Below are positions 14,487 to 56,447 of a stretch of DNA of 64,000 nucleotides, in pieces. The position numbers and the translations under genes are program-made. The first letter of the stretch is position 1, and each line of letters opens with the position of its first letter. The stretch comes from Porphyra umbilicalis (taxonomy: Eukaryota > Rhodophyta > Bangiophyceae > Bangiales > Bangiaceae), in contig KV919034.1 of NCBI GenBank assembly GCA_002049455.2, positions 1 through 64,000 of the forward strand, given 5' to 3'. The notes under the pieces are model-generated. The model was not told the origin of the DNA and did not search any database. It saw only the letters and a program-made list of their open reading frames with translations.

Positions 14487-14572
14487 GGCGTGGGGGGCTG
14501 CGGCGACAGGGAACAAGGGGGGGAAGGGAGGCGCGGGGGTGGCGCAAGAGTCGTGGAGGGATGTGGGGAGAA

Positions 14573-14622
14573 GGGCAAGACGAGCCGGCCAGCTGCAGGG
14601 CAAGACGAGCCGGCCAGCTGCA
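14573..14622. repeat. 25-bp tandem duplication upstream of the MFS gene
   Basis: Two perfect head-to-tail copies of a 25-bp unit beginning GGGCAAGACGAGCCGGCCAG, about 90-140 bp upstream of the MFS start codon. It could be a duplicated promoter element. Confidence 0.8.
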
Positions 14623-17600
14623 GCGCCGAGAGGAAGGGCCGGATGCTGCACCCGGCTGGACTGGGTGGCCGTCTCTGTCGCAGAGCTCGGCACTGGTGAC
14701 GCCACCAGCCTGGCACTACGCAGAATTTCACAAATACATTATGAGCTGACTCTTCCAATTACCTATACCAGACATTGGGCGAAATATTAAAACTCTGGCG
14801 AAAGCCTTGCACTGAGTGCCAGGCTGTGAGCGAAGCTTCGCGAAAATATCTTCATAGTCAAGGACACTCGGGGAAAATCGAGCGAAGACACTCAAAAGAG
14901 TCGACATGAATGCACACGACCTTTATCACCAGAGCGTCGGCTGCACCCCACCCGGTCTGCATATGACTTTTTCTCCGCGACACTGCCGATTTCTGCGAGT
15001 GCTTTCTCCACGGCCGGCACGGGCTTCAAAACAACAGCGTCTACACGATAGGAAAGCGCGCCGCCACAGCAGTTAGAGGCGGGCCCATGTGCGTCCCCCC
15101 CCCTCACTCTTTGCTTTTTTCAAAGATTCATGAGGACACTTGCCCATGCCGTATGCCTTTGCGCTGCTCGACCATTCTGTGAACGACTGTTGTCCAGAGC
15201 GTCGTGTCCACATGGCGCGTGTCAGCGGCTGTGAGCGCGGCGACGGTGTGAAATCTAAGCGGCATAGTAGCTCACGTGAGCTGCAGCGCGTGCGTGACAC
15301 GGTGCTTGGTCGCTTCTATGGGAGCCACAGGACAAAGGGCGTTGAGGTCGGGGTTGAGCTGCAGGGGGGGGTTGCCAGTTTAGTCGGCTCTGCGATTCTG
15401 CCCACGATGGCAGGCCATTTCGCTCAGATCTTACTTTTTACGTGGCGTGCCACAAAGGTTCCACTTGGAAGTCAATCAGTGGGCGAACGCATTGCCACGT
15501 GGGTCTCTGAGAGTGCGTTTCGTCGAGGGGGATGTGGAAGCTTCTGTACCTACTGTACAGTACGTACGTACTGTAACAAGTCTTGAAGATGTTCGGAGAC
15601 TTTCGGGCGAGACTGCCTGACTGCCCGCGCCACTCACTCGAGCTGCCTGCCGCTCATGCCTCGCTCATGCCACGTACCGCTCCCTTATGCAGCCGATGGC
15701 CGAGAAGCGCGCAACGCTGCAGCGCGACGCTGAGGGGCGGCAAGGGATCACCCTCCCCACTGTATTGATGGATTCCCCACAATCTGCGACAACCAATGGC
15801 GGGTCGTGTGGTTCTTCAGATTAGGGCCTGACGTTCTGTACTTTGCACCACGGCCGCGGGCAGCCAGGTGATGCGGCTGACGCTCGACCGGTCGCCTCGC
15901 ACCGGCCGCGGCTCGTCAGCTACCCGGCAACGTACCAGGCATCGCCGAGCCGCGGCTGCCTTCTTGGGTCCCTTGGTGGAGTTTCTCCGGCTGCCCGTTG
16001 TCGTCCAAATGCCCAGCCTCGTTGCGACGCTAGCGCGGCGGCGCGCGGGCCCATTGCGGGCCCCCCACTGCAGTACGTAGGTTGGAGAGCGGTGCGGCTT
16101 TAGTGAAGGGTGTTACGCGTTGTCAACTGTTGCGTCGCCGTGTCTCGTGCCGGCCGCGATTTGTTCAGCTCCCCCGCCATTGGGGCCGAGGGAGGGGGCC
16201 GGCGCCCGGCTTGCCGTCTTAAGGGGAGGAGGAGGTTGTGTGATTGACAGTGGCACGCATGTACGCCTACTGTGGCCCGCCCTCACCTCTGTTTTTCTTG
16301 TGCACGACGGCGCATGGAAGTGGCTACGTGGTGCGGCGGCCGCGGGGGTGTGTATGGAAGACGATCGGACGCAGCAGCGTGGCAGTGGCAACAGACGTCG
16401 GCCGACGTTGTCTGACTGGGAAGGCGCGCCACCATCGTCATGTCATGACTTTTTCCAATCGAGACCTCATCGAGGCCTCATTTGCGATGAGGTTGGCATC
16501 GCTCAGGATATGATTTCCTGCAGGGTTTCTCGATGGACATTGTTGGGGTTTGCGATGGGCTGAATTGGGTGGCCACAAGCGCCCAGACCGTCGACCTATA
16601 GGATGCGTGGAAGAGCAGTTACTTTCGCTGAGTTGATTGGAGAAACTCCTACGAACTAAACTAAATACAATGGGACGACCACCGTCGTCCCGCCACCTCC
16701 TTCGACATCTTGCCGGTCTGTGACTCCTGGCCGAGCTCGAGCTTGGGCGAACTGAAGTGGAGTCAATGTGTGGAGCGTGCGCGCGGGCGAATAACGTTTG
16801 CATACAGAGTGTTCGAGACAATGACTGTGCTTTCAATGGTTTTTTCGCTCTCTCATCGACGTGCGACTGTCTCTATGTACACTTCTGCGGTTGATGCTAT
16901 CGGCCCGACGAGCTGTTGCAGACGCCAAGTCAGATGCCGCCGGGGATGCTTCTTGCGAAGAAGACGTGGTCACGACGACGGTGAGACGAAGAACTTGTAA
17001 AGCTAAGTTCATCATCATTCGTGCAAGAATGCTTGGATTTTCTATTGACAGAACGTTGGTCGACACGTCAAGACACTTCGGAATCAACTGCCCAATCAGG
17101 ATGGCTGCATCTAGTTTAATGACAGAACAGTCAGACCCTCGAAAGTTGACAGGACCTCATCGCGTCGATGACTTCAATGGGATGACCGATGGACAGGAAA
17201 AAGCCCATCGACGGTCTTTTTTCGCCCATCGAACGTCCATCGAGAGCTCGATGGGTCCGCGATGGGAGAATGTCCAGAGCGGACGATTCTGACTGCTGAG
17301 TACAGCAACAGCACCCGCGGCGGGGCGGGAAGGACGCAACGCGGGCCCGCATCGGCACGTGTGGGAAGGAGGGGCTGTGGGCGGCCCAAACCCCCCTCGT
17401 AGCGGCTGACGCGTCGGAGGAGTGGGGACGGGATGCCGGCGCCACTCTGCTTGCAGCGTGGGAGTCGGGGCTCCACCCGCGCCACGCGTAGACGGCGCGT
17501 GCCGCGTGGTTGCGGCGGGTGTGGGGGGGTGGGAGTCGTCGCTACTTGAGCGCACCGCCGGTGTGCAAGGTAGAACGCTCCCCCATTGCAGCAAAATCGG

Positions 17601-17694
17601 TTAGCCGCCGATCCGCATACCCCATCATCGTTCCGGGGAGCGTCGTCCCTTCTCCATTGCGGACGACGCGCAAGTCCTCCCCCTTCCCGCCGCC
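14623..17694. other. Intergenic, AT-richer, repeat-bearing
   Basis: No protein-like frame is visible. The sequence is AT-richer than the genes around it (notably 14700-15000 and 16560-17130) and has short palindromes such as ACTGTACAGTACGTACGTAC near 15551. A cluster of CATCGA motifs at both ends of 16450-17270 is described separately. The last ~60 bp lead into the alkaline phosphatase start. Confidence 0.45.
16450..17270. mobile_element. Possible non-autonomous element with CATCGA subterminal repeats
   Basis: CATCGA/TCGATG motifs are concentrated at the two ends (left near 16458-16535, right near 17155-17265) and sparse between. The right end includes the palindrome CCATCGAGAGCTCGATGG at 17238-17255. 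This resembles the subterminal repeats of other elements in the window, but I found no clear terminal repeat or target duplication. Confidence 0.3.
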
Positions 17695-20058
17695 ATGGCG
17701 TCCTTCCGCCGGGCCGTGGCGGTCGCCACTGTTGCCGCCGCCGCCGTTGCGGCGGCGGCACCCGCCGTCGGCCTCCAGAAGCCCGAGCGCCACTTTGGGT
17801 GCCCCCCGGGCAAGAATGTGTGCGTCTACCCCATCGACACGGCGACGATGCAAGCCGAGGCCCTGTTTGACTTCCAGGTAGAGTTGCACGTCCTCGACCG
17901 GGTGCCCGTGGCCAAGCCCGTGACGCAGGAGTTGGCCATCACCATCAAGCTCCCGTCGGGGGAGACGACCACCCCGGAGGCCCTCTTCCCGGGCGTCAGC
18001 CCCGTGTACCGCACGTGGGACCTCAAGGCGTTCAAGGACATGTCCGATGAGAACCCGGTCGGGTACGACTCGTACGCGGCGACGTGGCGCAACGTGTTCA
18101 TCCCCAAGGCTGTTGGCGGCGGCGCCCTGACCGTCTCCGTGGTGGCTCGCAACGTGACCACCGAGGTGACGTACGACATCCGCAAGCCGACGGTTCGCAA
18201 GGCCAAGAACGTTATCTTGTTCATTGGCGACGGCATGAGCTTGACGATGATGTCCGCCGCTCGCCTCGTGTCCCGTGGCATGTACCATGGCAAGTATAAG
18301 GACAAGCTGACGATGCAGAAGATGGACAACTTTGCGCTGCTGTCGACGAGCGGCGTTGGCGCCATCATCTCGGACAGTGCCAACACCGCCTCGACGTACC
18401 ACACGGGCCACAAGACGAGTGTCAACGCGCTTGGCGTCTACGCCGACAGCGGGGACGACACGTTTGCGCACCCGAAGCAGGAACTCCTGACTGAGTACGT
18501 CAAGCAAGCCATGGGCATGAAGGTCGGCGTCGTCACTACGGCGCAAGTGCAGGACGCGACGCCCGCGTCGGCCTACTCCCACGTGCGCCGTCGCGGGGAG
18601 AAGGCGGCGATCACGTCGCAGGCCATTAACGGCTGCGCCAGCTGTGTCCTGCCCGTGATGCCCGACGTGCTCATGGGCGGCGGCGGCAAGTACTTCCTTC
18701 CCGACCGCTCCGTCGACGGCAGCAACATGTTTGACAAATACGCGGCGGCGGGCTACACTGTCACCCACACGGCCAAGGACATGGCGGCGGCGGCGTCGAA
18801 CCCGGCCACCAAGAAGCTGCTGACCATCTCTCACCGGTCCAACATGGACGTGTGGATGGACCGCCACATGTACCCGGAGAACCTGCGGGCGAGCAAGGAC
18901 GACCCGACGGGCGAGGGCAAGGTCCTCGACCAGCCCGACCTTGAGGACATGGCCATGTCGGCTCTGGAGGTGCTCACGCGCGATAATGACAATGGCTTTT
19001 ACCTCCTCATCGAGGGGGCGTCGGTCGACAAGAGCGCGCATTCGCTGGACACGCCGCGGGCGCTGGCGGACCTCATTGAGCTGGACAACACCGTCGCCAA
19101 GGTCTTGGAATGGACCAAGAAGAACGGCGACAACACGCTCGTGCTTGCCACGGCCGACCATTAGCACAGCTTTGATGTGTACGGTACTGTCGACACCAAG
19201 ATTTGGAAGGATTCGGTTGTGGCGACGGCGGAGAAGCCCGTCAGCGACCTGGACAACTACTGCTCGTCGGTGACCGACAACGTCGGCCACTCCTTCAAGT
19301 CGGCCTTTGGGTCGGGCAAGAACTCGGGGCGGTCTTCCAACTTGGCTCGCCGCTCGGCGATCGGCACGTACGCCAAGGCGGGGTACCCCGACTTTGTGAA
19401 CCGCGGCGACAACTTCCCCGTGACGTGGGACGTGCGGACGACGCTCGCCAGTGGCTTTGTCGCGCACCCTGACCACACCACGAGCTTCTCCGTCCAGTCG
19501 TCGACCAAGGATCCGGCCGACAAGGTTGGCGGCGTGGCCGTCAACGTCAAGGAGGACGACCCCAACGGCATCTTTATGAGCGGCAACCTGCCACCGAAAT
19601 CCTCGTCGGGCGTCCACTCCATGGCGGACGTCGGCGTGTTTGCGTCGGGGCCGGGCTCGGAGCGCGTGCGCGGCATGCTCGACAGCACGGACCTGTTCCA
19701 CATCATGGCGTCGGCGCTCGGCGTCGGCACGGACGGGCGCCAGGGCGGCGCGCCGGTGCCGTCGGGCACGACGCCCACCGCGCCCGTCCCGGCGCCGGCG
19801 CCGACGGCGGCGGTGCCGGCGCCGACGGCGGCGGTGCCGGCGCCCATGCCGCCAGTGACGGCGCCGCCCCTGGTGTTGGTGCCGACGCCCACGCCGGCGG
19901 CGACGGCCATGCCGGCGACGCCAGTCACGCCAGCCAAGCCGGGCAACGGCGGGGCCGTGGGCGTGTCCCCCCCGGCGTGCTCCCAGGCGACGGCGTCGAC
20001 GGCGTCGACGCCGGTCGACGATGACGAGGAGGACGAGGACGAGGAGGTCGAGCAGTAG
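17695..20058 (+). CDS. Secreted alkaline phosphatase with one in-frame TAG codon
   Basis: 787 codons with a single TAG (19162-19164, codon 490) inside an otherwise continuous frame. A signal peptide is evident (MASFRRAVAVATVAAAAVAA). The alkaline phosphatase core has NVILFIGDGMSL (metal Asp), ISDSANTAS with the catalytic Ser, ATPASAYSHVRR, EGASVDKSAHSLD, LATADH (metal Asp-His), then after the TAG HSFDVYGT, and the C-terminal ligand region SGVHSMADVGVFASGPGSER. The enzyme hydrolyses phosphomonoesters outside the cell. Where relatives have a sense codon between TADH and H(S)FD, the gene has TAG, one C-to-T step from CAG (Gln). Coding character is equally strong on both sides. The tail has PAPTAAVPAPTAAVPAPMPP repeats and ends DDDEEDEDEEVEQ. 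Possible explanations are a recent nonsense mutation, a base-call error, or readthrough. Confidence 0.9.
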
Positions 20059-34566: not shown

Positions 34567-35686
34567 GGTCGTGGCTGGGGTTGTAACCGGCGCCGACGCG
34601 TCGAGTAGAGAGGAACGATGGCAACATGTGAGTGTACACTGTGTGTAAAGTGTTTCGATTGTGTAGTTCCCTGGCCTTTAGGACAGGGTGCTCTCAAAGT
34701 GTAGTGATGCACACATATACTTAGATCAAGGGACTTGATCTCCGTTTCAGAGGTGGCAGTCTGCATTCGTGTCCTCAGGGATCTGAGGGCGTGTCAGTGT
34801 TGGAAGGGTCGCGATGACGCTAAAAACGAATCGAGTTACGTGGCTGAGAAGGACTGTCCTGCCACAGGGGTCACTGGGCCCGGACGGCGCCTGCTCCCGT
34901 ACCCCCTCTACCGCGCCCCGAATTGCGCGCGGTGACCGCGGGCAGCGACTTCCGGGGCTTGACGCGCCCACGATGACCCGGGGGTGATCGTGCCTGCGCG
35001 CCGTCTTCTGTTGCGGCGGCGCGTCGGCGGTTGCTGACGCCATCTAGCGGCGCGGTTACAGGCGCCTCGTCGCGCGACGATCAGTCCCACCCGCCCGCCC
35101 GTGCGCCTTGTCGGCCGCCCTGCCCGCCGTGCGCAGGTGCGCTGCGCGGCGGAGTGATGGCCTCGCCCGTGGGCGCCGCGCGACGCCGGCGGGCCGCCGC
35201 CGCTGCGGTGGCGAAGGCTGCACCCCTTTCCCCGCCGTACGCCCCCCCCACCACGACAACGTGGCTGTATGTGCCCCCGTGCGCGCCCGCGGCCATAGAG
35301 CCGGCCGGCGTGCCCGGTGTCAATGCGTCGCCGAGCGCGCCACCGCCCTGAAGGCCAGGGTATTGCACGCACGTGCCTGGAATTGTTAGCGAAGCTTCTA
35401 GTAGGGATCCATTCGTGTTCTCAACGCTCAGGCAGCCACGTTGCATGGAATGGATGGCCCCAGTCGATTTGATGGTCACCCTCTAGGCCATTTTATTGGA
35501 TGGTCCCATCAGCACGCCCAATCAAGAATATCCACGTTTCAGCTTTCGATGGCTCACAATCGCTCTGGTCCAGATGGATTACACACGCAAGCGATTACAG
35601 ATTCTGCCAAAAGCGTTTACAGATGCCTTCGGGGAACCCCCACTGTACAGTATACACTCCACACCAAGGCCCAGAAATGCAAGACG
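34567..35686. other. Intergenic; a short open frame may be a gene fragment
   Basis: The first ~350 bp are AT-richer 3' flank. An ATG at 35157 opens a plus frame to 35351 (MASPVGAARRRRAAAAAVAK) that resembles the start of a plastid- or mitochondria-targeted protein but stops early. A minus frame overlaps it. Neither is secure. Confidence 0.3.
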
Positions 35687-38333
35687 GGTAATCGTAGCCT
35701 TGACGGCGTCAAGGCAACCTTGACGGATGAATCTGATTGGTTCTCGCATCATCGATTTGGGCAGGTGGTCTCACCCCTGAGGGGAGCAACCGCCAGCCCC
35801 CCTTGCCGCAGTTGGGATGCGGACGGGCCAGACAGGTCCGCGTCGCTCAGCCTGCTCTATCCTATAGAACCAGGGTCTGCCAGTGGGGGGCTGCCGCCGG
35901 TGCAGATGCCACTCGTGGGGGCCCGCGCCGCCGCCCTCCCCCTCTGGGTGGGTGCTGCCACCCCCCTGTCTGACTTTCTGCCGTCCTTGGCGGCGCGCCC
36001 GCTGCGGCGGCTTGCCCCCCCTACGGCGGCGAAACCGCCGCCGATGCAGCGCCACTCGCGGTGCGGGGGGGGGGGGGGGGATTGAGGGGCGGGGGGGTAG
36101 AGGGTGCGAATGGCACCGCCGCCACAGACGGCGACACGGAGCCCGAGGGCGATCTGCCAGACGACGCGCGCGGCGTCACCGCCGTTAACGTTGCCACAGG
36201 TGCGGTGCGCGTGTCCGACCCCGCCGCCCCCCGTGGCGCAGCTGTGGCCGCCCAGGGACACGCGGGGGGTACACGCTGCGCGTTGCAGCGTCGGTGGCGG
36301 CGTTGGCGGCGGCACCCCCCACCGCGCCGTCGCCGGCCAGTGGGGGGAGTGACTGCGGGAGGAAAGGAGGTGGGGGGGGCGTCAGCGCTGGACCACGCGC
36401 GCGTGTGTGTGTGGGGGCGGGGGCGGCCAACGAGCCCTACGCGCGGGGCGCGATGGCCACGGAAACAGAGGCTGACGTCCGCCTCGCCGCCGTCGCCACG
36501 GCCGAAGCGGCCGCGGCGCCCGCCGCCGACCGACGGCCGTCGGGCGTCTACGGCGGCCGCAGCGCACAGCTGGGCGCCCGTCACCCCGCCACCGTCGTGC
36601 CACCCGCCCCTCCGCGGTCACGGGGGCTGTCACGGCGACGTCGGCGGCCGGTCGCACACGCGGCCGCGGCACCACCAGCCAACCGGCCGGGTCAGGAGCG
36701 GCGGCGGTTCCCCCATGCGTGCCTGCCCCACCCCGCTTCATCGGCAGGGCCCCCACGGGCGCAGCGTCCCCCGCCCCCCCCTCCCCCACCTCGGCCGCGA
36801 AGAGTACCGGCGGGAAGCGGCCCGCCAAGACGCTCTCCCGCCCGACCACCGCCGGGAGCCCCGCCCAGCGCCTTCCCCCCTCCAACCGGTGCTCGCCGAC
36901 GGTCGTCCGGCGGGCGCGTCGCGCCCGCGCGTGTGGGGCGGGGGCAGCGGTCGCTGCGCGGCCGACGCGACGGCTACTAAATTTAGGGAGGGGGGGGGGG
37001 TTCGTGTCGCCGCCTTGCCCGCCGCCGCCGCCCTGCCCGCCTCCGTGCCACAGCGGTGTGTGCGGGCGCCGCTCCGCCGCCGACGCTCTACGCCGCCGTC
37101 GGCATATCCTGGCTCCAAACACTTTCGAAACTACGTACACACACTTTGGTGTTGGCCATCTTGCCTAGACTGCCGAGTGTCTCGGCTTGACAGAGCTACT
37201 GTTGGGGACGGTCATGTGTTCAGTAGAAGTGTCTTTCGCGCCCCCCGCAAGGAACGTATCCTGGGGCCCGTGGAAGAGTACGCTGCAATCGACCGATGCG
37301 CGCAAAATACGGCAGTGCCCGTGATACATGAGCACAGCGCCCTTGCCTCAGGGCGACCCGGACTTTTTGAGTATGCTGAGAACGATGGTGCTACTGGCAG
37401 AGCTCGCACATGATTTCTTCATGTTGTTTCCTCCGCGGTCAATTATATCGTATCGCACGTCACACTATGCACAATCGTTGTCGTGACGATGCGCCCGGCG
37501 AGGACAGTCCCCAGCCAGGCGGCTTGCTCAAAATAGGTGTCGATGGCAGACACAGACGCGGGCGAGTGCTCTGCGGTGCACGCCCAGTACCGGCACAAAC
37601 CCGCGCGCACCCCTCTCGCGGCCCTCGCCCCGCCCTGTTGTTGACACCGTGGCATGGCGGAGCGCTGGCAGTGCCGGGTGGCTGTTCATGCCAAACACCG
37701 TGAGCGAGCCGTACACAGCGTGGGCTGCCCCACCCCGAACTGTCGATCATCCGTCGGCCTTCTGGGCGGCTTGGCGCCACCAGCCCCCATAAGCACACAC
37801 ACACACAGCGCCTCACCACCGCACCACCACAGCAGCACAACTCTTTCCTGAAGCGTCCGGACACACGCGGCACCAGCCTCTGAGTCCCGTACACAACTTT
37901 GCCGCCGCCCCTGCCGCAGAGCAGAGTGACAGATGTCAGCAAGCAGCGACAGGGGCCGCCGTTCTCGGTAGCATACAACCAAGCGGTGGCAGCCGTGCAG
38001 CGGCGGCGACCAGCTGGCGTCGGCGGGGAGGCAGCGGTGTTTAGCTGAGGGGGCGGAGATCATGGCAGCGGGGCAGAGGTACGGGCACGGGCAGTGACAG
38101 CGACGAGGAGGGTACAAAGGTGCTGAGCTCACACCTGCTGCCGATATGGATGTCCTAACATATAGGAATCGCTGGTTCAGGGGGAGCACATTCCCCGTGC
38201 CCCCCCCGACCGCGCCAGCCCGCCCTCCCACCGCACTCCAGATTCCAAATCTCCCCCCCCCCAAACCAACCTTGACGCAACCTTGACGACGCCTTGACAA
38301 GGCCCTTGCATCTCCGTCAACCCTACTATTACC
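35687..38333. mobile_element. Candidate 2.6-kb TIR element with CCTTGAC repeats
   Basis: The left end GGTAATCGTAGCCTTGACGG (35687 on) and, as complement, the right end GGTAATAGTAGGGTTGACGG (38333 back) match at 17 of 20 positions. Both ends carry clustered CAACCTTGACG / CCTTGACG repeats (35698-35728; 38264-38300). No flanking duplication was recognised, so the two ends may belong to one element or to two. Confidence 0.4.
35777..37168 (+). CDS. Possible hypothetical gene split over three frames
   Basis: Four consecutive protein-like stretches lie in successive frames: LPLWVGAATPLSDFLPSLAA (about 35940), EGDLPDDARGVTAVNVATGA (36140), MATETEADVRLAAVATAEAA (from 36452) and SAAKSTGGKRPAKTLSRPTT (about 36795). 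Each step is a net -1 shift, the first at the G run 36063-36079. If those are sequencing undercalls, a disordered, basic protein of about 450 residues would result. No domain is recognised, and composition alone could create this impression. Confidence 0.22.
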
Positions 38334-38693
38334 GAGGTTCAGAAATGGTCAGCAGCGCGCCTGCACTGCCTCTCCGCTCTCTTCCGGGGGGGGGGGGGGG
38401 GGGCGGGGGGCCGCGACCACGACCACCCGCGCCGTGTCTGCCGCGTCGGCCGGCTCGCCGTGGGCGACCACGGGGGGGGGGCGCCGCGACGTCGGCCACC
38501 GCCGCCCCTGCGCCTGCCTCGCCGCGGGCGACGACGGGGAGCCGATCGCTTGAGCGGGCCGCGCCCACCCCCGGGGGGGGTACCTGCTCCGCCCCCGCTG
38601 CCCCGCCCACCACCCCACCGCGACCGACCCGGCGGCCGACCCCGTCGCTGCCTCCCCGTCCTCCCCCCGCTCGCGCACCCGGTCGGCGGCGGC

Positions 38694-39651: not shown

Positions 39652-40734
39652 CGCCGCCGCCGGTGGCGGTGCGACGGGGAGTGGGGCTGGCGGCGCACGC
39701 CTAGTCAAGGGCGGTCTTCTTGTATTCGTCATTACAGTTTTTTGTGAATATATTCAGACAACACGTCTCATTCGGACAGTCCGACCCCTCTCTGCAGCAT
39801 GCTTCTGACGCCTTCGGCCTACGAGCTCGACCACCCAGTTTCTCAGTGCAGCACACGTATTTTTCATTGCTTTTTTCTGCAAACGCTACTAGACTACGTG
39901 ATGATGTCGAGGACCCCAACAGGACCCCAAAGACCCCTGCTTGTTTTCCCGCTATGGCCACCTCTCTTTCGCACTTGGGAGGCCTCCCAGAGACACCGAA
40001 AAGGCCACTACGGCTTCAAAAAGAACGTCAGACAGCATGTGCGAAGTCCCAAAGGATAGGAGAGGTGGCTACATGGTATGTAAGGGCTCTACGGATGCCG
40101 TACCGGTAGCTCTGGCGGTGGTGTCGGATTGGGAGGGTGGACTCTGACGAGCAGAAATGTGAAACTGCTATCGAAAATGTTGCCGAATGCGTCCACCGGA
40201 GCCGCTTTGTTTCATCGAGAGATCAGGTAGTTATTGTCCAAGCGTCTGTTGATTGGGTGCTGAGTGCCACGTCAAGCCCATTCGAAACTCATTAGATATT
40301 TCCACCTGGACCATGTCAGTACGCTCGTCCACCAATGAGGTGAAGCGAGCCCCTGGCAAGATGAGGGAATCACCAATGGAAGGACAGATTCACATGAAAA
40401 ACCCAGAAGTCCGCTTTTAGGCCCTCTTGACTAGGCGTGGGCGGCGGGGGCGGTGGCGACTAGGGCGGCGGACGCAGCGGCGGCTCCGGCTCGGCCGCCG
40501 TCGCTGCCGTCTGCACGTCCAACGACGTGGCCGATGGCCACCGCGAATTCTCTGACGTGGCACTGTTCGACTTGCCAATTCATCTGTCGTCGTTTGAAAA
40601 CGGTTTTATGGTCTCGTCAGTCCAGGGTATTTTTGCCAACGTGGTTTCAGAAGTCAAATCGTGGTTCTGGTCCCAGGATTGGGACTTTCATTTACTGTAC
40701 TTCAAGTCGTGGCGTGGACTTTTCTATATTTACT
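39652..40734. other. AT-richer spacer, no gene
   Basis: Mixed composition with several short frames, none protein-like. It leads into the tandem array. A frame at 40527-40735 continues into the repeats and is probably incidental. Confidence 0.45.
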
Positions 40735-41491
40735 TGCCAGACGACCGTGCCGCTGTTCTCACCGGACAATCCGACAAATACGTCCACACGTCGGTGGTAA
40801 GTCGTGTTCAGACGGTATGTGTCTTGCGTTTTTCTGTATTTACTTGCCAGATGACCGTACCGCTGTTCTCACCGGACAATCCGACAAATACGTCCACACG
40901 TCGGTGGTAAGTCGTGTTCAGACGGTATGTGTCTTGCGTTTTTCTGTATTTACTTTGGGGGGGGGGCGGGCGACACGGCGGCGGGTGTCGGCGCGCGGCG
41001 CCGCGGCAGGGGCGGAGGCGGGGGCGACCGCGGAGGCGGGGGGGCGCCCGCGCGGGCGGGGCGGCGGTCGTGGCGGGGGTCCACCGTATCGCGTTTGGCC
41101 CTCGCGTCGGGGGCTCGCCGCCGTCATCATGACGGGGATGATCCCCACGGGGGCCGACGGAAAACGTTCCGGTCAGAATAGGTGCACGGTCATCTGGCAG
41201 AAAAGTGAATGGAATTAGTTTCACCCCCGTGTTGTCAAAGCTGGAACAGCGCCCATTGGGGTGCCTGCATTGGGCGCACCGAGGGTGGCCTCAGAGTCAC
41301 ATCCGCCCGGTGCAATACGACTGAACAACGGGCCCACCCGTCCGAGCATGACTGGCAGGTGTTCACCTGGAACGGTCGACACACAACGGACGAGCCCCAG
41401 CGCATGGACGGTTTCACGACACGCATGGGGTTGGGCGCATATTGATTGCAAAATGAATGTATAAGTCGTTTTCAGATGGTATGTACTTTTA

Positions 41492-42552
41492 TGTACTTGA
41501 TTAGCCAGATGACCGCGCACCTGTTCTCACCGGATAGTCCGATGCCCTCCTGTCGGCGCCGCGGACGCACAAATACGTGATCTTGTTGGTGGTAAGTCGT
41601 GTTCAGACGGTATGTGTCTTGCGTTTTTCTGTATTTACTTGCCAGATGACCGTGCCGCTGTTCTCACCGGACAATCCGACAAATACGTCCACACGTCGGT
41701 GGTAAGTCGAGTTCAGACGGTATGTGTCTTGCGTTTTTCTGTATTTACTTGCCAGATGACCGTGCCGCTGTTCTCACCGGACAATCCGACAAATACGTCC
41801 ACACGTCGGTGGTAAGTCGAGTTCAGACGGTATGTGTCTTGCGTTTTTCTGTATTTACTTGCCAGATGACCGTGCCGCTGTTCTCACCGGACAATCCGAC
41901 AAATACGTCCACACGTCGGTGGTAAGTCGTGTTCAGACGGTATGTGTCTTGCGTTTTTCTGTATTTACTTGCCAGATGACCGTGCCGCTGTTCTCACCGG
42001 ACAATCCGACAAATACGTCCACTCGTCGGTGGTAAGTCGAGTTCAGACGGTATGTGTCTTGCGTTTTTCTGTATTTACTTGCCAGATGACCGTGCCGCTG
42101 TTCTCACCGGACAATCCGACAAATACGTCCACACGTCGGTGGTAAGTCGTGTTCAGACGGTATGTGTCTTGCGTTTTTCTGTATTTACTTGCCAGATGAC
42201 CGTGCCGCTGTTCTCACCGGACAATCCGACAAATACGTCCACACGTCGGTGGTAAGTCGTGTTCAGACGGTATGTGTCTTGCGTTTTTCTGTATTTACTT
42301 TGGGGGGGGGGCGGGCGACACGGCGGCGGGTGTCGGCGCGCGGCGCCGCGGCAGGGGCGGAGGCGGGGGCGACCGCGGAGGCGGGGGGGCGCCCGCGCGG
42401 GCGGGGCGGCGGTCGTGGCGGGGGTCCACCGTATCGCGTTTGGCCCTCGCGTCGGGGGCTCGCCGCCGTCATCATGACGGGGATGATCCCCACGGGGGCC
42501 GACGGAAAACGTTCCGGTCAGAATAGGTGCACGGTCATCTGGCAGAAAAGTG
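41492..42552 (+). mobile_element. TIR element copy inside the array (six monomers)
   Basis: Left end TTAGCCAGATGACCGCGCAC at 41500 and inverted right end CACGGTCATCTGGCAG near 42532. In between are six 110-bp monomers and a GC-rich segment. No intact coding frame. The spacer of about 290 bp to the next copy is the same between copies, so element and flank were duplicated together. Confidence 0.7.
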
Positions 42553-42836
42553 AATGGAATTAGTTTCACCCCCGTGTTGTCAAAGCTGGAACAGCGCCCA
42601 TTGGGGTGCCTGCATTGGGCGCACCGAGGGTGGCCTCAGAGTCACATCCGCCCGGTGCAATACGACTGAACAACGGGCCCACCCGTCCGAGCATGACTGG
42701 CAGGTGTTCACCTGGAACGGTCGACTTACAACGGACGAGCCCCAGCGCATGGACGGTTTCACGACACGCATGGGGTTGGGCGCATATTGATTGCAAAATG
42801 AATGTATAAGTCGTTTTCAGATGGTATGTACTTTTA

Positions 42837-43677
42837 TGTATTTGATTAGCCAGATGACCGCGCACCTGTTCTCACCGGATAGTCCGATGCCCTCCTGTCG
42901 GCGCCGCGGACGCACGAATACGTGATCTTGTTGGTGGTAAGTCGTGTTCAGACGGTATGTGTCTTGCGTTTTTCTGTATTTACTTGCCAGATGACCGTGC
43001 CGCTGTTCTCACCGGACAATCCGACAAATACGTCCACACGTCGGTGGTAAGTCGTGTTCAGACGGTATGTGTCTTGCGTTCTTCTGTATTTACTTGCCAG
43101 ATGACCGTGCCGCTGTTCTCACCGGACAATCCGACAAATACGTCCACACGTCGGTGGTAAGTCGAGTTCAGACGGTATGTGTCTTGCGTTTTTCTGTATT
43201 TACTTGCCAGATGACCGTGCCGCTGTTCTCACCGGACAATCCGACAAATACGTCCACACGTCGGTGGTAAGTCGTGTTCAGACGGTATGTGTCTTGCGTT
43301 TTTCTGTATTTACTTGCCAGATGACCGTGCCGCTGTTCTCACCGGACAATCCGACAAATACGTCCACACGTCGGTGGTAAGTCGTGTTCAGACGGTATGT
43401 GTCTTGCGTTTTTCTGTATTTACTTTGGGGGGGGGGCGGGCGACACGGCGGCGGGTGTCGGCGCGCGGCGCCGCGGCAGGGGCGGAGGCGGGGGCGACCG
43501 CGGAGGCGGGGGGGCGCCCGCGCGGGCGGGGCGGCGGTCGTGGCGGGGGTCCACCGTATCGCGTTTGGCCCTCGCGTCGGGGGCTCGCCGCCGTCATCAT
43601 GACGGGGATGATCCCCACGGGGGCCGACGGAAAACGTTCCGGTCAGAATAGGTGCACGGTCATCTGGCAGAAAAGTG
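42837..43677 (+). mobile_element. TIR element copy inside the array (four monomers)
   Basis: Same structure as the copy to its left, but with four monomers. Left end at about 42846, right end CACGGTCATCTGGCAG near 43657. Confidence 0.7.
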
Positions 43678-43961
43678 AATGGAATTAGTTTCACCCCCGT
43701 GTTGTCAAAGCTGGAACAGCGCCCATTGGGGTGCCTGCATTGGGCGCACCGAGGGTGGCCTCAGAGTCACATCCGCCCGGTGCAATACGACTGAACAACG
43801 GGCCCACCCGTCCGAGCATGACTGGCAGGTGTTCACCTGGAACGGTCGACACACAACGGACGAGCCCCAGCGCATGGACGGTTTCACGACACGCATGGGG
43901 TTGGGCGCATATTGATTGCAAAATGAATGTATAAGTCGTTTTCAGATGGTATGTACTTTTA

Positions 43962-44802
43962 TGTATTTGATTAGCCAGATGACCGCGCACCTGTTCTCAC
44001 CGGATAGTCAGATGCCCTCCTGTCGGCGCCGCGGACGCACAAATACATGATCTTGTTGGTGGTAAGTCGTGTTCAGACGGTGTGTGTCTTGCGTTTTTCT
44101 GTATTTACTTGCCAGATGACCGTGCCGCTGTTCTCACCGGACAATCCGACAAATACGTCCACACGTCGGTGGTAAGTCGAGTTCAGACGGTATGTGTCTT
44201 GCGTTTTTCTGTATTTACTTGCCAGATGACCGTGCCGCTGTTCTCACCGGACAATCCGACAAATACGTCCACACGTCGGTGGTAAGTCGAGTTCAGACGG
44301 TATGTGTCTTGCGTTTTTCTGTATTTACTTGCCAGATGACCGTGCCGCTGTTCTCACCGGACAATCCGACAAATACGTCCACACGTCGGTGGTAAGTCGT
44401 GTTCAGACGGTATGTGTCTTGCGTTTTTCTGTATTTACTTGCCAGATGACCGTGCCGCTGTTCTCACCGGACAATCCGACAAATACGTCCACACGTCGGT
44501 GGTAAGTCGTGTTCAGACGGTATGTGTCTTGCGTTTTTCTGTATTTACTTTGGGGGGGGGCGGGCGACACGGCGGCGGGTGTCGGCGCGCGGCGCCGCGG
44601 CAGGGGCGGAGGCGGGGGCGACCGCGGAGGCGGGGGGGCGCCCGCGCGGGCGGGGCGGCGGTCGTGGCGGGGGTCCACCGTATCGCGTTTGGCCCTCGCG
44701 TCGGGGGCTCGCCGCCGTCATCATGACGGGGATGATCCCCACGGGGGCCGATGGAAAACGTTCCGGTGAGAATAGGAACACGGTCATCTGGCAGAAAAGT
44801 GA
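43962..44802 (+). mobile_element. TIR element copy inside the array (four monomers)
   Basis: Same structure. Its right end reads GGTGAGAATAGGAACACGGT, closer to the fuller element at 45.2 kb (GTGAGAATAG) than the other copies (GTCAGAATAG). Confidence 0.7.
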
Positions 44803-45170
44803 ATGGAATTAGTTTCACCCCCGTGTTGTCAAAGCTGGAACAGCGCCCATTGGGGTGCCTGCATTGGGCGCACCGAGGGTGGCCTCAGAGTCACATCCGC
44901 CGACGCATACACACTTTGGGATGTGCACTGCCAGTATGGTATGGCCCCGCATTGGCCCTACCGTGCAGCTCTGGTGCCAGCCACAATCCCCACCGACTTT
45001 GTGACGTCCTTGCGTGGTGGACGTCGCCGACCCACAGTATTGGAACTGGCCACCACCATCCCCCAAAGGGCCAGTGTCTGGACAAGCTGCTGGGATCCTT
45101 TTGCAATCACCAAAGTATAGCACCCAGTGCGCCCGTGGCGCCGCTTCTTGTCATGAGAAGTAATTCCAAG

Positions 45171-50500: not shown

Positions 50501-50670
50501 TGCATGCGCGCTCGTGTGTTTGTCTGTCTTTCGACGCTGCCCACGCTTGGGCGGCGCGCCGTATGAACCGTCTCGCATTGCCGACCTGTCTGAGGCCTGC
50601 ATCGTCCCACAGCGTCATGCCGCGAGACACTGCCTGTCTAGTTGCTCGACCCGCCGGAATCCGTACGCGT
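47596..50670. other. Accessory region upstream of the Fanzor gene; no secure gene
   Basis: Several 100-150 codon frames exist, for example at 49887-50198 (MGVDEVRRAGCGGGLHADVG) and 49360-49728. None shows a known domain and none is clearly better than its overlaps. A strong hairpin lies at 48596-48628. This is where the left end of the Fanzor element should be sought. Confidence 0.35.
48596..48628. repeat. Strong 15-bp-stem hairpin
   Basis: CCCGGCTATATGGCA, three G in the loop, then TGCCATATAACCGGG: 14 of 15 positions pair. A partial direct copy, GCATATAACCGG, follows at once. It could be a transposon end structure or a terminator-like hairpin. Confidence 0.8.
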
Positions 50671-50671
50671 G

Positions 50672-50681
50672 CCTATAAAAG
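50672..50681 (+). promoter_or_regulatory. TATA box upstream of the Fanzor gene
   Basis: CTATAAAAG in a GC-rich context, about 240 bp before the preferred ATG at 50917 and 390 bp before the alternative at 51064. A first ATG at 50700 is in another frame and could be a short upstream ORF of 77 codons. Confidence 0.6.
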
Positions 50682-50916
50682 CGCCACCGACCGGGACCGA
50701 TGGGCGGCACCAGCAGGCGCAACAGCGCACACTGGGCCGACGCCCCCCGCCGCCGCGCGTGCCGGCGGCGCGGGGCGTCTCGTGCGCGCCGCCCCCCCCT
50801 TGTTGAGCGCGGCTGCAGCCGCACGCCCTCGGCTGCCCCCCTGCTCCACCCCGGCCGGCAGACGGTGTCACCCGCCGTGGTGCCCCCCGCCTGTACGGCG
50901 CGCGGTACGTTGGGGT

Positions 50917-53900
50917 ATGGCCGACCCGGGTGACAGTGCCCGTACGCCTCTGGGGCACGCGACACACCCTGGTGTGTGGGGGTATGTTCGACCGGGCCCC
51001 ACTCCCCGCGTCCCTGACGCGGCGGGTGTCGGCGGGCACGCCCGTGCTCGCCGGAACGACGCCATGCGCGTGGACGCACCCCCGTCCGTCGCAAGCAGCG
51101 AGCACTCGCGTCGTTCGTCCGGTACCGGCGCCGGTGCGTGCGGCACCGTCCCGCTGGGGGGCATTGGGGCGACACCCGGCACCGACGCAGACGACGTGTC
51201 GTCGACAGACGAGGAGGAGGCGCCCGGCACGTCGACGGCGCTGCGAGCGCGTCGCGGCCCCACCGGGGCGCGGCGGTCAGCCATGATGGCGGGCGGTGGT
51301 GCGGGTGTGGCAGACGGCAACGGGCCCGCGGGTGGGGGCACCGCTGGCGGCGGCGCACGGGCCGTGGCCGCGACCACCAGAGTCGGTACCGCGGGCGGTC
51401 CCGGCGACGACACTCGCGCCTCGGCGATTGGCGGCGACCACGGCGGTCTGCTCCCTCGGGTGGGTGGGGGTGCCCCCGACAGTCGCCCACCACCAACGGG
51501 GGGCGTCTCCGCGCGCCCCGCGCCGTCGGCGAGTGTCCCCAGCGGCCCCCGTGTGCCCGGCGGGGTGCCCCCCCCTTCAGCACCAGTGACCGACCCCGCC
51601 CCACAGACAGCTGGTGGGAGCGGCGGTGGGGACGCCGGGGGCGGGGACGGCCCCGTCGACGGACCCGTCGACAAGGACCTCGACCGTGACGGCGCCGTCA
51701 CGCGTCTGGGTGCGACCGGCGGGGACGCGGCCATCAAGGCCGGCGGCCACGTAGACGCCGCGCGACAATGTGCCGCGTCTGCCGTGCGGTCCGCGACGGT
51801 CGAAGTCGCCGCCGCCGCCGCCGCGTGCGAGGCGGCCGGCGACGTGGGGCCGGTGGGCCCCTTGCGTGACGCGAGCACCCTGCTGGCCAAGCTGCTCGCA
51901 GCAAACCCCTTGCACGCGCGGGGCACCACGTCGTACGCGTCGGCAGCGCTGGGCGACGCCGAGTCGGCCTCGACCGCAGTGCTGCGAGCCATCGACGCGG
52001 TGACCGTGCCGCCGCACCAACCACCCGCTGCCGTCCCTGGGGACGGCGGCGCGGCAGACGCTGCCGCCGGCGCTGCGACAGCCGCCGACAATGCCGCGGT
52101 GGTCGCCTGTCGGCGCCTGCGCGCGCGCGCCCGGCACGCCGCAAGCAGCGTCTTGTCCGCGGCCAAGGGCTTGATACCCATGGCAACCCCCGACGCGGGG
52201 GACCACCCGGGCGACGACGCGGGTGCCGGTGCTGGGGGCGCGCCGTCGAGCGGCGGCGGCAAGCGCTCTGGTCGACGCCACTGTGGCGGCTGCGGGGCGA
52301 CGGGGCACTATGTGCGGACATGTCCAGCAGACGCAGCCGCCAAGGCTGCGCACGCGGCGCGCGTGGCGGCCGCCCGGGCGGCCAAGGGCGCCGCGGCCGG
52401 CAGCGGCCGTACCAGGTGCGGTGCCTGCCACGCGCGGGGCCACACGCGCGCGAGCGCAGCGTGTCCGCTGCGTGCCGTCGCCCACGGCTGGTCGGACCAC
52501 AATGAGGACCGCGGCCGCGACTTGGCGTGCGCCGACCAGTACCGCATGACGGGGGAGGTGACGACGACGGTGGCCGTGTCGGTCGACCGGTTTTTTGGCG
52601 TCTGGCGGCGGAGGCTCCCGCGGCCGCCCACAGACTGCGCGCCGCCAGCGGGACGCCCGCCGACCACCTCGGCTCATCGCAAGACCGAGGCGTCTGCCGA
52701 GGCCGACACCAATGCGGCGGCGGGCGCGGCTGCGCTGACAAAGTTGGCTACGGCGCAGACGCAGCATCTGCGCCTCGTCTCCATTGTCATGGACGGCACG
52801 ATGCGGTACCTGCTTGAGGGCGTCGACGGTGGTGGCGGCGGGCTGGGTGCGGGTGGTGGTGGCGGCGGCCGACGCACGCTCGACGAGTTTATGGCGGCCG
52901 TGCCGGCGTCGCTGACGGGCAGCTTCGGGCTTGCGTGGAAGCAGGTCGCCTCGACCGTCTCGTGTCGCGGTGTCCACGCGTTTGACGGCGCCCCCCGGCG
53001 GGCGTGTGTCTCTTGCTCGGGGTGGCGCGCGCACGCCAAGCCGCGTGCAGACGTCAAGGCGGCAACCGGCGACGGCGATTACACCGCCTTTGTTGCCGCG
53101 TCGGCGGCAGTGGCTGCGGCCGTAACCGAGCGAGAGCAGCTGCCGTGCAGCACGCTGCTGCCGAGTCCGGCCGAAACGGGCGGCTGGGCGACCGTCGCAA
53201 CGTCCTTTGAAAACCACTATGTGACGCACGTCACGTCGGCGGTCAAGGCCATTGCAAAGTGCATCGTCCTCGCGGTCTACCCGCAGGCCCCCGGCGGTCT
53301 CGACGGACAGCGCCGCGCGGCACTGATTGCGGTCCTGGTTGCCGGCCTGCAAGCCGCCGACGGCACGCGCCCGCCGTCGTTCAAGTGGCCGGCGGGCAAA
53401 GTGTCTGCGGCGCATGGGGCTGCCATGACGGCCGCCGCGGCGCTGGCCTGCGACACCGTCCTCGTGTACACGGATGGCGGCGGTCAGCGGCGCTCGCTGC
53501 TGCACCTAGACACGTTGGCCCTGCGACAGCGGCCGCTACACGTTTACCCGTTGCTGCACTATGCCCAGGCCCTGTGCGTCGGCGCCGGCATCGAGGCGGC
53601 CGACACGTCACCTGGCCGAGTCGCTGCGTGCACCGGGTACGCGCGCGTCAGCGGCGCGCTGCTCCGCAAGCGCCTGGCGGTCCACGGGGGTTCAATCCCA
53701 CCAGAGACGGCCGACGGTTTGGTCGTGCAGGCGCTGCTCCGCCGCGCGGGCATCATCCGCGCCTCGACGGTCGTTGGCCCCTCCATCGTGTCGGACGGCG
53801 TCGGCGTGCACTTTACGATACGACACCCCGCCACTGCAGCGTCGACAGCGGCCGCTCGGCGGGCGCGCCGCAGGGCGGCCAGTGACGGTCGCGGGGGGGG

Positions 53901-56361
53901 GGTCCGACCGAGACGGCGAGCGTGCGGACGCAGCTCGACCGCATGGCGTTTGCGCCCGACGCTGTCAAGGAGCTGGCGTTTGTCGGGTGGGACCCGGGCG
54001 TCGCGTCCATCGTCGCTGCCTACTGCCCCGGGCAGTGCCGTTTGCGCTCTCACCGGCACCGCACCTGCACGCGTACCGGGCGTATCGGGCGCTGCGGGTC
54101 GCGGCCGACGCGCTCGCGCGGGCGGCCATGGCCGCGACCGCAGCTGCAGAGTGCCACGTGCGGCGCAGCGGTCGGTTCCTGCCGACCGTCGACACGCTGC
54201 GCGCAACGGTGGCCCGGATTGTTCGTTCGGCCAAGGCCACCGCGGCGAACCTACCCGTCGGCGGCGGTGACGCGGTGTGCGGGACGACCAAAAAGCGCGG
54301 CCGTGGCGCGCTCGGCGCGTCGACCGGGGCGGAGGGATCTCCCCCAAAGCAGAGTCGTACAGCTCTGGTGGGGGGCCCGCCGGCGGCCACGCCGGCGGCA
54401 CAGGCGTCTGTGCCGCCTTTGGAGGACGCACCGACGCAGCCGGCTGCTGGCTGCCCCCCCCCCCCCCCCCCCGACCCGCCCAAGCGGCCGCGGTACACGC
54501 AGCCACAGTATGGCGACGAGTGGCTGACGCCCGCGCAGCGGAAAGAGGTCGCCCGCAAGCGGGGGACGAGCGGCCCCGACGGCCGGCGGCCTCTGCTGAC
54601 GCGCCTGCGCGCGCTCGCACACGCCGCGGTCAACGACGGCGGCGTCCAACCGTGGCGCCTCCCCAACCACGTGTGTGTGTGGATGGGCGAGGCGGCCCTG
54701 TTCAAGGCGTCGACCGACGCGGCCGCCGACGCAGGCGCCAAGGCTGAGGCGGCAGCGAACGCAGAGGCGGCGTGGTACGCCCTGTCGGTCAGGGATCAGC
54801 GACACGCTGCGCGCTTGTGCCACAGCGCGGCGCGCACCGCGAAACGGGCGGCGGCGGCGGCGCGCAACGCAAAGCGCGCGGCGGCTGCGGCCGCCGCCGC
54901 TGCACCCGCTGCGCCACCGCAGCTCGGCGCGCCCGGCACGTCGCTGCCGTCGGCCGACCGCTTGCGCGTGTTGTGTGCCGCACTCAAACGTGCGGCCCCG
55001 CCGGGGCGCCGGCGCGTGTGCGTCCCGCCCACTGGTGCGACGCTTGTCGTCTCCAAAGGCGCGTACCGCGAGGCGACGGGCGCCGGTATGACGAGGCGTG
55101 CCGAGGCGGCAGCGGTGGCGGTGTGGGCGGCGGCACACCCAGGCGTGCCGCGCGAGTCACTGACGGCCGGGTGCTCCCTCAAGGTCCCGACGTGGGGCGC
55201 GTGGGTGGTGGCGGCCACTGCGCGCATCGCCCGCACCTACACAGATGCCTATCAGGCGGCGTACGGGGCGGCCGCGACGTACGGTCAACGCAAGGCGCGG
55301 CTACACGCCCTCATTCAGCGCAACCGGTACGCGGCGGTGCTGGCGCGCCGCTTGACGGGTGGACTCCTGCGGCGCACGGTGGACGGCACCAAGGCGGTGC
55401 TGGCGATTGGGCGGTGCAGGCCCCGCGCCGGCAGCGTCGACCTCGTGCGGCGCATGGCCAAACACGTGCACCTCGTGTACGTGGACGAGCACAATACGAG
55501 CCAGACGTGCGCCGAGTGCGGCCACGGCTTGTGCAACACGTACGTGTCGCCCGACTCGCCGGTCGACCTGACGCCCCTCAAGGCGGCAAGCAGTTACGCA
55601 CATCGCGCGTCGGCGTCGGCGGCCAAGCGCGCCTCACCCCTCCGCGGCGGCCGGCGCGCGCGACGGGGTGTGACGACCGGCAGTCGGTCGGGTCCACGCG
55701 ACGGTGCGGCTGCCCAGCGCGCCAAGGAGCACGCAGAGGCGGTGCGGACAATGGTGCTGCAGGCGATTGCGGCTCACGGCAAGTGGGCGTTTGGGACCGA
55801 CCCGCTGGCGCTGTGGGGGGTCAAGCTGTGTACCAACGTCGCCTGCCCGGCTTCGTACGTCGGGCGAGACACCAACGCGGCGCGCAACATGTCCAAGATT
55901 GCCATCAAGAGCATGCGGGTCGGAGCATCTTCCCCCACATCCGGGGGTACACCGTGTCACGCGCGCCACCCCAGGAAGACCATGTACAGGCGGTGCGGCA
56001 CGCGGCTGCGATCGACGCGGGTACCTACGAGGCCGGCTACGGGTGGACGCGGTGTTCACCCACGTCGTGGGAGCCCTGGCGCCGACCTGTCGTCGCCGAC
56101 GCGCCGGTCGCAGAGGCGGGGACGGCCCCCACGGCCGTGCCAGTGGCGGCGCCAACGGTGCGGGTAGAGGCGCTGGGTGTGGTGGCAGACGGGGCGAACT
56201 ACGCAGCTGCTGCGTCGGCAAGCGGTGACCTGGCGACGAGTAACGTCGGCCAGATGGCTGCTGCCAGCCCCGCGCCAGCCGTGGGGCACAGCCACTCGTC
56301 TTCGAGCCGCCTCGAGCGGGTAATCGTAGACTGTTCACCAGGTTCATCTCGTGGGGTGTGA
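50917..56361 (+). CDS. Giant Fanzor (TnpB-like RuvC nuclease) gene with three -1 frame breaks
   Basis: Fanzors are eukaryotic relatives of TnpB/Cas12, carried by transposons and guided by a noncoding RNA. Frames in order are 50917-~53900, ~53900-54030, ~54030-55920 and ~55925-56361, each step net -1. The N-terminal ~440 residues are disordered, Gly/Ala/Pro-rich with an acidic patch (STDEEEAPG). Then come zinc knuckles CGGCGATGHYVRTC (residue ~456) and CGACHARGHTRASAAC (~501) and the mid-region FENHYVTHVTSAVKAIAKCI. RuvC-I is FVGWDPGVAS (Asp at 53991), followed by LHAYRAYRALRVAA. The RuvC-II glutamate is in VYVDEHNTSQ (Glu at 55487), leading into zinc-ribbon TCAECG. A ~90-residue insert follows, then LCTNVACPASY and RuvC-III VGRDTNAARNM (Asp at 55868). 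All catalytic acids are present. At about 1,815 codons it is far larger than most family members. Breaks at a 10-G run (53892) and near a 5-C run (55940) suggest sequencing undercalls; decay is the alternative. Confidence 0.85.
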
Positions 56362-56365
56362 ATAG

Positions 56366-56447
56366 GGAGCTTCGCTCCTCACCTCTGCCAGAGGTGACTA
56401 CTGGTCTAGGGCTCCGTCGGGGACAAGGAGGTGGCGCTGGCGCCACC
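56366..56447 (+). ncRNA. Three-hairpin cluster after the Fanzor stop: candidate guide-RNA scaffold
   Basis: Four bases after the stop codon begin GGAGC-TTC-GCTCC (56366-56378), immediately followed by TCACCTCT-GCC-AGAGGTGA (56379-56397, perfect 8-bp stem), and later GGTGGCG-CTGG-CGCCACC (56430-56447, perfect 7-bp stem). In TnpB and Fanzor elements the guide (omega) RNA is made from the 3' end of the nuclease gene and flank, so the position and structure fit. The element boundary, where the guide portion would start, is not identified. Confidence 0.4.

Follow-up and report, generated by a model that had tools for sequence, protein, structure and literature searches.

A multicopy element with a giant Fanzor-like gene, in-frame zinc knuckles and retroposon-like tails

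The 64-kb window analysed here (positions 1 to 64,000 of contig KV919034.1 from Porphyra umbilicalis; contig C274 of the 83.8-Mb assembly in which our genome searches were run) contains a conserved giant gene for a Fanzor-like protein with an in-frame zinc knuckle, and this gene is part of a mobile element. A preliminary description of the locus had recognised a giant Fanzor with zinc knuckles and had missed what is new here: the multicopy state of the element, its exact 3´ end and its 5´-truncating, retroposon-like tails with target-site duplications. The assembly is eukaryotic since the window contains an eIF3i gene (6447-7715, minus strand). Its GC content had pointed to an alga; among actin chains in the PDB, the top scores went to those of C. 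elegans and other animals, some further chains being amoebozoan. Comparisons between sister copies rest on 20 fetched loci plus the window copy, unless stated otherwise.

One gene for knuckles, RuvC motifs and zinc ribbon

The zinc knuckles, the RuvC motifs and the zinc ribbon are encoded by one gene. Direct reading of the sequence confirmed the three RuvC acid motifs, the split zinc ribbon, both knuckles and the upstream TATA box at the places given in the preliminary description (Table 1), and the frames indeed have to be joined, since the motifs of the window copy are spread over frames 1, 3, 2 and 1. At least three frame changes break up this copy, one from the poly-G run (~53,895) to 53,985, one around 54,035 and one around 55,920. 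The break at the poly-G run could be an assembly error, and the breaks in general may be due to either decay or assembly error. Despite the split frames we conclude that there is one gene, because the sister copy L023 is unbroken and the related protein P0002 holds a knuckle together with all three RuvC motifs. L023 is a single open frame of 1921 codons, which agrees with the giant size first proposed; it contains knuckle 1, DPG, E-x6-CxxC and RDTNAARNM and is the only one of the 20 loci that is unbroken from knuckle 1 to RuvC-III, and the first Cys of its knuckle 2 is lost. In the L023 protein (P0001), D1124, E1622 and D1749 are the candidate catalytic residues. The true start probably lies inside this frame, giving a protein of perhaps 1730-1780 residues, because the B-type copy L020 has a Met ahead of SSTDEEE (MDDQSSTDEEE) where A-type copies read through SSTDEEE.

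Related proteins show the same linkage. P0002 (1408 aa, from an ENA contig, 33% identical) carries knuckle 2, DPG, E-x6-CxxC and RD in one chain and was the sole relative from the whole-protein search, among 8000 scored candidates. The alignment search gave six matches, P0003-P0008, with best local identities of 64-94% (7995 candidates scored), and a search with P0002 added P0009 (1331 aa, 48% identity; 7969 candidates scored), which carries knuckle 2, RuvC-I and RuvC-II (E-x6-CxxC) and whose frame stops ahead of RuvC-III. In P0006 and P0007 both knuckles are joined to RuvC-I in one chain. A location of the knuckles in a separate gene is excluded by L023 and P0002, with partial support from P0009, P0006 and P0007. 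The knuckle 2 spacing CX2CX4HX6C is kept in P0002, P0009, P0006 and P0007, and knuckle 1 is absent from P0002 and P0009; knuckle 1 appears to belong to the lineage of the window copy and knuckle 2 to be the more widely conserved one. The architecture that best explains these proteins would start with an N-terminus of low complexity, continue with one CCHC knuckle or two and a long middle region, and finish with the RuvC motifs, their Glu repositioned as in Fanzors, and the zinc ribbon. Outside the knuckles and the ribbon, Cys 781, 795, 798 and 842 of P0001 are aligned in P0001, P0002, P0007 and P0009; they lie in the middle region and might make up a further zinc site.

Table 1. Features of the Fanzor-like gene and its element in the window
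Feature	Position	Strand	Remarks
Stretch common to A-type copies	50641..56405	+	BLASTN against 20 sister loci; 56,405 is the 3´ end, 50,641 the left departure of one copy group
TATAAAA	50674..50680	+	also in all eight sister copies whose left part was read
First part of the Fanzor-like frame	51199..53895	+	frame 1; conserved SSTDEEE to poly-G run; L023 continues in one frame
Zinc knuckle 1, CGGCGATGHYVRTC	52282..52323	+	CX2CX4HX4C; frame 1, read from the sequence
Zinc knuckle 2, CGACHARGHTRASAAC	52417..52464	+	CX2CX4HX6C; zf-CCHC_6; frame 1
RuvC-I, GWDPGVAS	53985..54008	+	Asp codon 53991-53993; frame 3 in the window copy
RuvC-II, YVDEHNTSQTCAECG	55478..55522	+	Glu codon 55487-55489, six residues ahead of CxxC in the first ribbon half; frame 2
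Second half of zinc ribbon (CX4C) and RuvC-III (RDTNAARNM), CTNVACPASYVGRDTNAARNM	55829..55891	+	Asp codon 55868-55870; frame 2
Tail of 121 bp	56285..56405	+	coding end, stop and 3´ untranslated end; common to a second element family
Stop codon of the Fanzor-like gene	56359-56361	+	frame 1, as is the C-terminus
Right terminus, AGAGGTGACTACTGGT	56390..56405	+	83 genome places with at most one mismatch

Relation to Fanzor proteins

According to the available text of PMC10711439, what sets Fanzors apart from most TnpBs is DPG together with a Glu that precedes the zinc finger by six residues. DPG is present in P0001 (residue 1124), P0002 (753), P0009 (800) and the window copy, and the repositioned Glu (E-x6-CxxC, Ealt) in P0001, P0002 and P0009. 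The zinc ribbon is followed by RD, in P0001 as RDTNAARNM and in P0002 as NRDVTAAANI. The ordered pattern DPG..E6CxxC..C..C..RD was found in 0 of 20,000 residue shuffles for each of P0001 and P0002. The spacing weighs against an assignment as a Fanzor. The distance from D1124 to T1625 is ~500 residues, outside the 125-275 of the motif D-X(125,275)-[TS][TS] that is given in the accessible part of Bao and Jurka (PMC3627910), and the zinc ribbon is not compact, with its halves ~100 residues apart and the second half being CX4C. An AlphaFold2 model of part of P0002 (predicted local distance difference score, pLDDT, 38.2; predicted template modelling score, pTM, 0.24) was too poor to place the RuvC acids, and a sequence search of the PDB gave no relative (matches with E 0.15 or worse).

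The window copy reached PF07282, the TnpB/Cas12f TNB zinc ribbon, with 26.3 bits at a cut-off of 26.3 (26.2 in a repeat scan), so that the proposed search against Fanzor/TnpB profiles did give a match; taken alone this match, which spans only 22 of 60 profile positions, is just at threshold. PF07282 matches are found at 32 places genome-wide. The window knuckle scored 23 bits against zf-CCHC_6 (cut-off 22). NCBIfam and PHROGs gave solely sub-threshold or ribbon-only matches of the TnpB/transposase type, and no viral contig in IMG/VR was matched by P0001. The Fanzor identity first proposed stands as regards the signature residues (DPG, the Glu six positions ahead of CxxC, and RD) and not as regards the published spacing and the usual length. 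Because the published spacing fails, the protein is best labelled Fanzor-like and not a Fanzor proper, and our best inference is that it would act as an OMEGA-type RuvC nuclease.

Selection among the copies

The motif residues are mostly retained across the 20 loci and the window. Pairwise ratios of nonsynonymous to synonymous substitution rates (dN/dS) in the knuckle region are 0.32 for L023 versus L018, 0.32 versus L009 and 0.24 versus L025; they are 0.22-0.44 in the part ahead of RuvC-I (four pairs), 0.00-0.50 in the RuvC-I block and 0.30-0.68 in the block from RuvC-II to RuvC-III, where few changes were counted. These values argue for purifying selection on the copies, the knuckle region included. 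Against this, other parts of the gene are less constrained, with values that reach near neutrality (linker 0.45-0.94, C-terminal tail 0.81-1.22, N-terminus 0.31-0.81) and several copies have altered motifs: DPG is changed in L009, L025, L026 and L027, the second ribbon half has lost a residue in L009, L011 and L019, knuckle 1 is altered in L011 and knuckle 2 is damaged in L019 and L023. Knuckle 2 was not found in L013, both knuckles were not found in L010, L027 and L028, and RuvC-I was not found in L010.

The altered DPG and ribbon residues would be expected in a decaying pseudogene family without present function, as would the three frames of the window copy and the split frames in most of the 20 loci, L023 excepted. 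We regard such a family as doubtful: dN/dS is below 1 in most compared regions, most copies keep their motif residues, related proteins exist in other public contigs and at least one of the window breaks lies at the poly-G run. In the comparison of L023 with L018 (codons 188-1921), the synonymous divergence is ~0.3-0.58 upstream and only 0.05-0.09 where the gene ends on the 3´ side. Subfamilies that recombine, or a constraint on the RNA, might cause this drop.

Copies, right ends and solo tails

The element is multicopy and has an exact 3´ end at 56,405. A genome-wide search for its 16-base terminus, allowing one mismatch, gave 83 places, 70 of them exact, and the reversed pattern used as control gave 2. 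Of these 83 places 64 were read, which left out 9 exact and 10 one-mismatch places. A first set of 33 distinct right ends agree on ...GAGGTGACTACTGGT and then continue into unrelated flanks; 32 more ends were read in addition, and L001 and L087 are one pair of right ends sharing a flank. The common right end near 56,405 is seen in most of the 20 loci (without it are L026 and L028). A single alignment block from 50641 to 56405 was obtained in six loci (L012-L015, L021, L022), the blocks of the others being longer, split or shorter. We rejected 50,641 as the left end of the element since other copy groups run on upstream with different sequence. Long repeats extend to ~38 kb in C3 and C141, but a different repeat, which itself ends at 38,340, obscures the boundary there. 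The comparison of copies proposed at the outset has yielded a relative with an unbroken frame (L023) and the 3´ end of the element, whereas its 5´ end was not located; the bounds of 50,672-56,447 first given have to be revised, as the mobile unit stops at 56,405 and begins somewhere upstream of 50,672. A further copy at G000:C274:82875 and a partial copy at 69705 are located on the same contig, past the window.

The 32 additional right ends differ in how much of the gene they retain. Three are Fanzor coding sequence throughout, ten match only from 56,285, two start at 56,230 and 56,282, and 17 are shorter still, L069 among them being cut by the end of its contig. For 18 solo tails, namely the 17 shortest without L069 and the two starting at 56,230 and 56,282, the bases of the right flank were compared with the sequence before the tail, and swapped flank pairs (n=306) served as control. 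Direct repeats of at least 6 bp were present in 12 of the 18 solo tails (15/306 in swapped pairs), of at least 8 bp in 9 (8-17 bp; 1/306) and of at least 10 bp in 7 (0/306); the two cases with 7-bp repeats may be chance. A narrower count gave repeats of at least 8 bp in 6/18 versus 2/306, because the breakpoints of L060, L065 and L071 were set too near the tail. The 12 left repeats are preceded by TTAT in six cases and by TGAT or TCAT in two (TNAT 8/12), the background frequencies being 0.0011 for TTAT and 0.0074 for TNAT; the remaining four follow CTTT, GTAC, TGGT and TTTG. L060 carries a duplication of 13 bp that follows TTAT, and it still includes ~53 bp of the Fanzor sequence that precedes the shared tail. 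The spread of the tails is 5´-truncating and retroposon-like.

Some of the data do not fit this picture. Six of the 18 solo tails have no repeat of at least 6 bp, and in L071 the duplication is separated from the tail by ~133 bp of unrelated origin. For the long Fanzor copies, neither the fetched stretches nor a motif search in two copies gave a convincing target-site duplication, and the left ends of long copies fall outside most fetched pieces. Since the long copies gave no convincing duplication, retroposition is supported for the short tails only; the combination of variable-length duplications with 5´ truncation, as in long interspersed nuclear elements (LINEs), is likewise seen in solo tails only. 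Two candidate repeats of long copies, GCCAGGAGC in L013 and GTCTCTTG in L018, were rejected as chance, one lying in a repetitive stretch and one within the gene.

A second element at the tail and neighbouring features

An opposite-strand element of ~8.2 kb adjoins the Fanzor tail, with its junction at the equivalent of window ~56366-56381. By eye it has C2H2-like fingers and motifs like those of reverse transcriptases (L089, L090); Pfam recognised no reverse transcriptase in its split frames and a PDB search gave nothing. With 40 of 120 candidates scored, 20 of 25 visible near ends start inside the Fanzor tail and 5 of 25 at the junction only. L090 has Fanzor tail sequence on both sides of this element, and two copies of it lie 8.2 kb apart in C55, likewise in C288. 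It may be a site-specific LINE targeting the Fanzor tail, or part of a composite.

This second family raises the question whether the Fanzor genes spread only as passengers when larger segments are duplicated, with the solo tails being those of a different retroposon (the 8.2-kb element or its tail). Several copies do share long flanks (C141, C3), and most solo tails fall inside the last 121 bp, which both families have in common. The 33 ends stop exactly at 56,405 and almost all of them have unrelated flanks, and the stretch that L060 holds from upstream of the shared tail comes with a target duplication; passenger genes therefore seem to us distinctly improbable.

The right ends can also be compared with those of a non-autonomous Helitron2-type element, whose one-ended rolling-circle transposition would explain why 3´ ends are fixed, 5´ ends truncated and duplications variable. 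The same pattern, with duplications of ~7-19 bp after T-rich tetranucleotides, is described for the Fanzor1 families CRe-1, 2 and 3 of Chlamydomonas and read as Helitron in the accessible part of Bao and Jurka 2013 (PMC3627910). A hairpin can form at the 3´ end of the element, and a Rep match at C13:496127 has a copy of the second, tail-associated element (C13:505770) ~9 kb away. The 28 Helitron_like_N matches in the genome all lie more than 100 kb from the listed right ends (83), in a comparison that covered right ends only and would miss a Helitron with a more diverged tail, and the sole contig with both a Rep match and a right end, C26, has them ~111 kb apart. We consider a Helitron2 origin unlikely.

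Other features of the window lie further upstream. Arrays of a 110-bp repeat within larger duplicated blocks (40720-44901, spacing ~1.1-1.3 kb) are located upstream of the Fanzor gene, and a different repeat family occupies 37944-38340 and breaks off sharply on the right, at 38,340 (L049-L051). In L052, L053 and L056, position 35,679 is closely followed by 38,331, and window 35680-38330 looks like an insertion. An alkaline phosphatase match extends across two adjoining open frames (17605-20055, plus strand) and an MFS transporter is encoded at 13458-14738 (minus strand). Among the sister loci, long frames outside the Fanzor gene (L027 857-4222, L028 97-4071, minus strand) are Copia-type polyprotein-like by eye, one of them with its own CCHC knuckle.

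Discussion

Target-primed reverse transcription, as used by non-long-terminal-repeat retrotransposons, leaves copies whose 3´ end is fixed, whose 5´ truncation varies and whose duplications differ in length and lie at a preferred tetranucleotide. Because the tails described here combine a fixed 3´ end, 5´ truncation and duplications at a preferred tetranucleotide, we infer a retroposon-like spread. The best explanation for the whole, which we consider rather probable, is a multicopy element with a giant Fanzor-like gene that would be retroposed by trans-acting machinery and might use a guide RNA made of tail plus flank. The transcript of the element would be inserted 3´ end first by the machinery of another retrotransposon that recognises the tail. 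The protein might bind RNA with help from its knuckles, and an RNA spanning the tail into the right flank could serve as guide. The empty allele, TTAT and then the flank sequence, would in that case be the target of the nuclease, which would fit the target logic of Fanzors.

Several results count against such a mechanism. Structured sequence had been reported downstream of the gene, and the tail is conserved in sequence, but its predicted RNA structure is only weak (z = -1.42, with an equally good or better fold in 20 of 200 shuffles) and compensatory changes were found in 2 of 22 predicted pairs (33 sequences). No reverse transcriptase or endonuclease domain was recognised in the window frames 50704-53895, 53922-54100 and 54035-55951 or in 12 relatives; the scan for reverse transcriptases between 38 and 50 kb covered two frames. 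Reverse transcriptases are abundant in the genome, with at least 150 matches (150 of 847 candidates scored), and among these genome matches no partner ending in the Fanzor tail was identified.

It might also be imagined that the element is an RNA-guided retroposon. Here, the Fanzor-like nuclease would find TTAT and a guide-matched site, its cut would prime the insertion of the 3´ end by a borrowed reverse transcriptase, and the knuckles would hold the transcript. We think this very unlikely; if true, an OMEGA nuclease and target-primed reverse transcription would be coupled in nature. If the tails move by reverse transcription, a natural link between RNA-guided nuclease and retroposition becomes testable. 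The open-access literature that joins Fanzor and target-primed reverse transcription appears to be all about gene editing, and the available sections of PMC6338049 mention Fanzor in DNA transposons only. Tails with duplications after TTAT bear on the question raised in 2013, whether Fanzor1 elements are one-ended Helitrons or reverse-transcribed. In addition, a family of this size shows to what extent the Fanzor architecture tolerates enlargement, and it makes it possible to ask in a natural system whether an added RNA-binding module alters guide handling. In the open-access literature, to which our search was limited, we found no paper that pairs Fanzor with CCHC, and none among the best 20 of 616 matches that pairs it with zinc knuckles.

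The element can also be compared with short interspersed nuclear elements (SINEs) whose tail is that of a trans-acting LINE and with derivatives of LINEs of the HAL1 type. These resemble the element in having short 5´-truncated tails, target-site duplications and a coding element without a recognised reverse transcriptase. Unlike these derivatives and SINEs, the element encodes a Fanzor-like nuclease, and no LINE partner was found. The analogy to HAL1 has been drawn for Fanzor1 elements in the accessible part of PMC3627910. The Chlamydomonas families CRe-1, 2 and 3, as presented there, have 5´ truncation, intact 3´ ends, variable duplications and a T-rich tetranucleotide in common with the element (TTTT there, TTAT here); they are tied to Helitron2 ends, whereas here no Helitron link is seen and knuckles are present.

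On the protein side, the TnpB/Cas12f TNB zinc ribbon (PF07282) shares the CxxC ribbon half with the TS motif, at cut-off and limited to part of the profile. The Fanzor1/Fanzor family is similar in the DPG of RuvC-I, the repositioned Glu, the zinc ribbon, the RD...NAA of RuvC-III and the mobile-element setting. According to the available text of PMC11423790, Fanzor1 proteins mostly have 600-700 aa; the protein described here, with perhaps 1730-1920 residues, would be nearly three times the usual length, and it differs further in the D-to-TS distance of ~500 residues, in a ribbon that is split by ~100 residues and has a CX4C half, and in its in-frame CCHC knuckle or knuckles.

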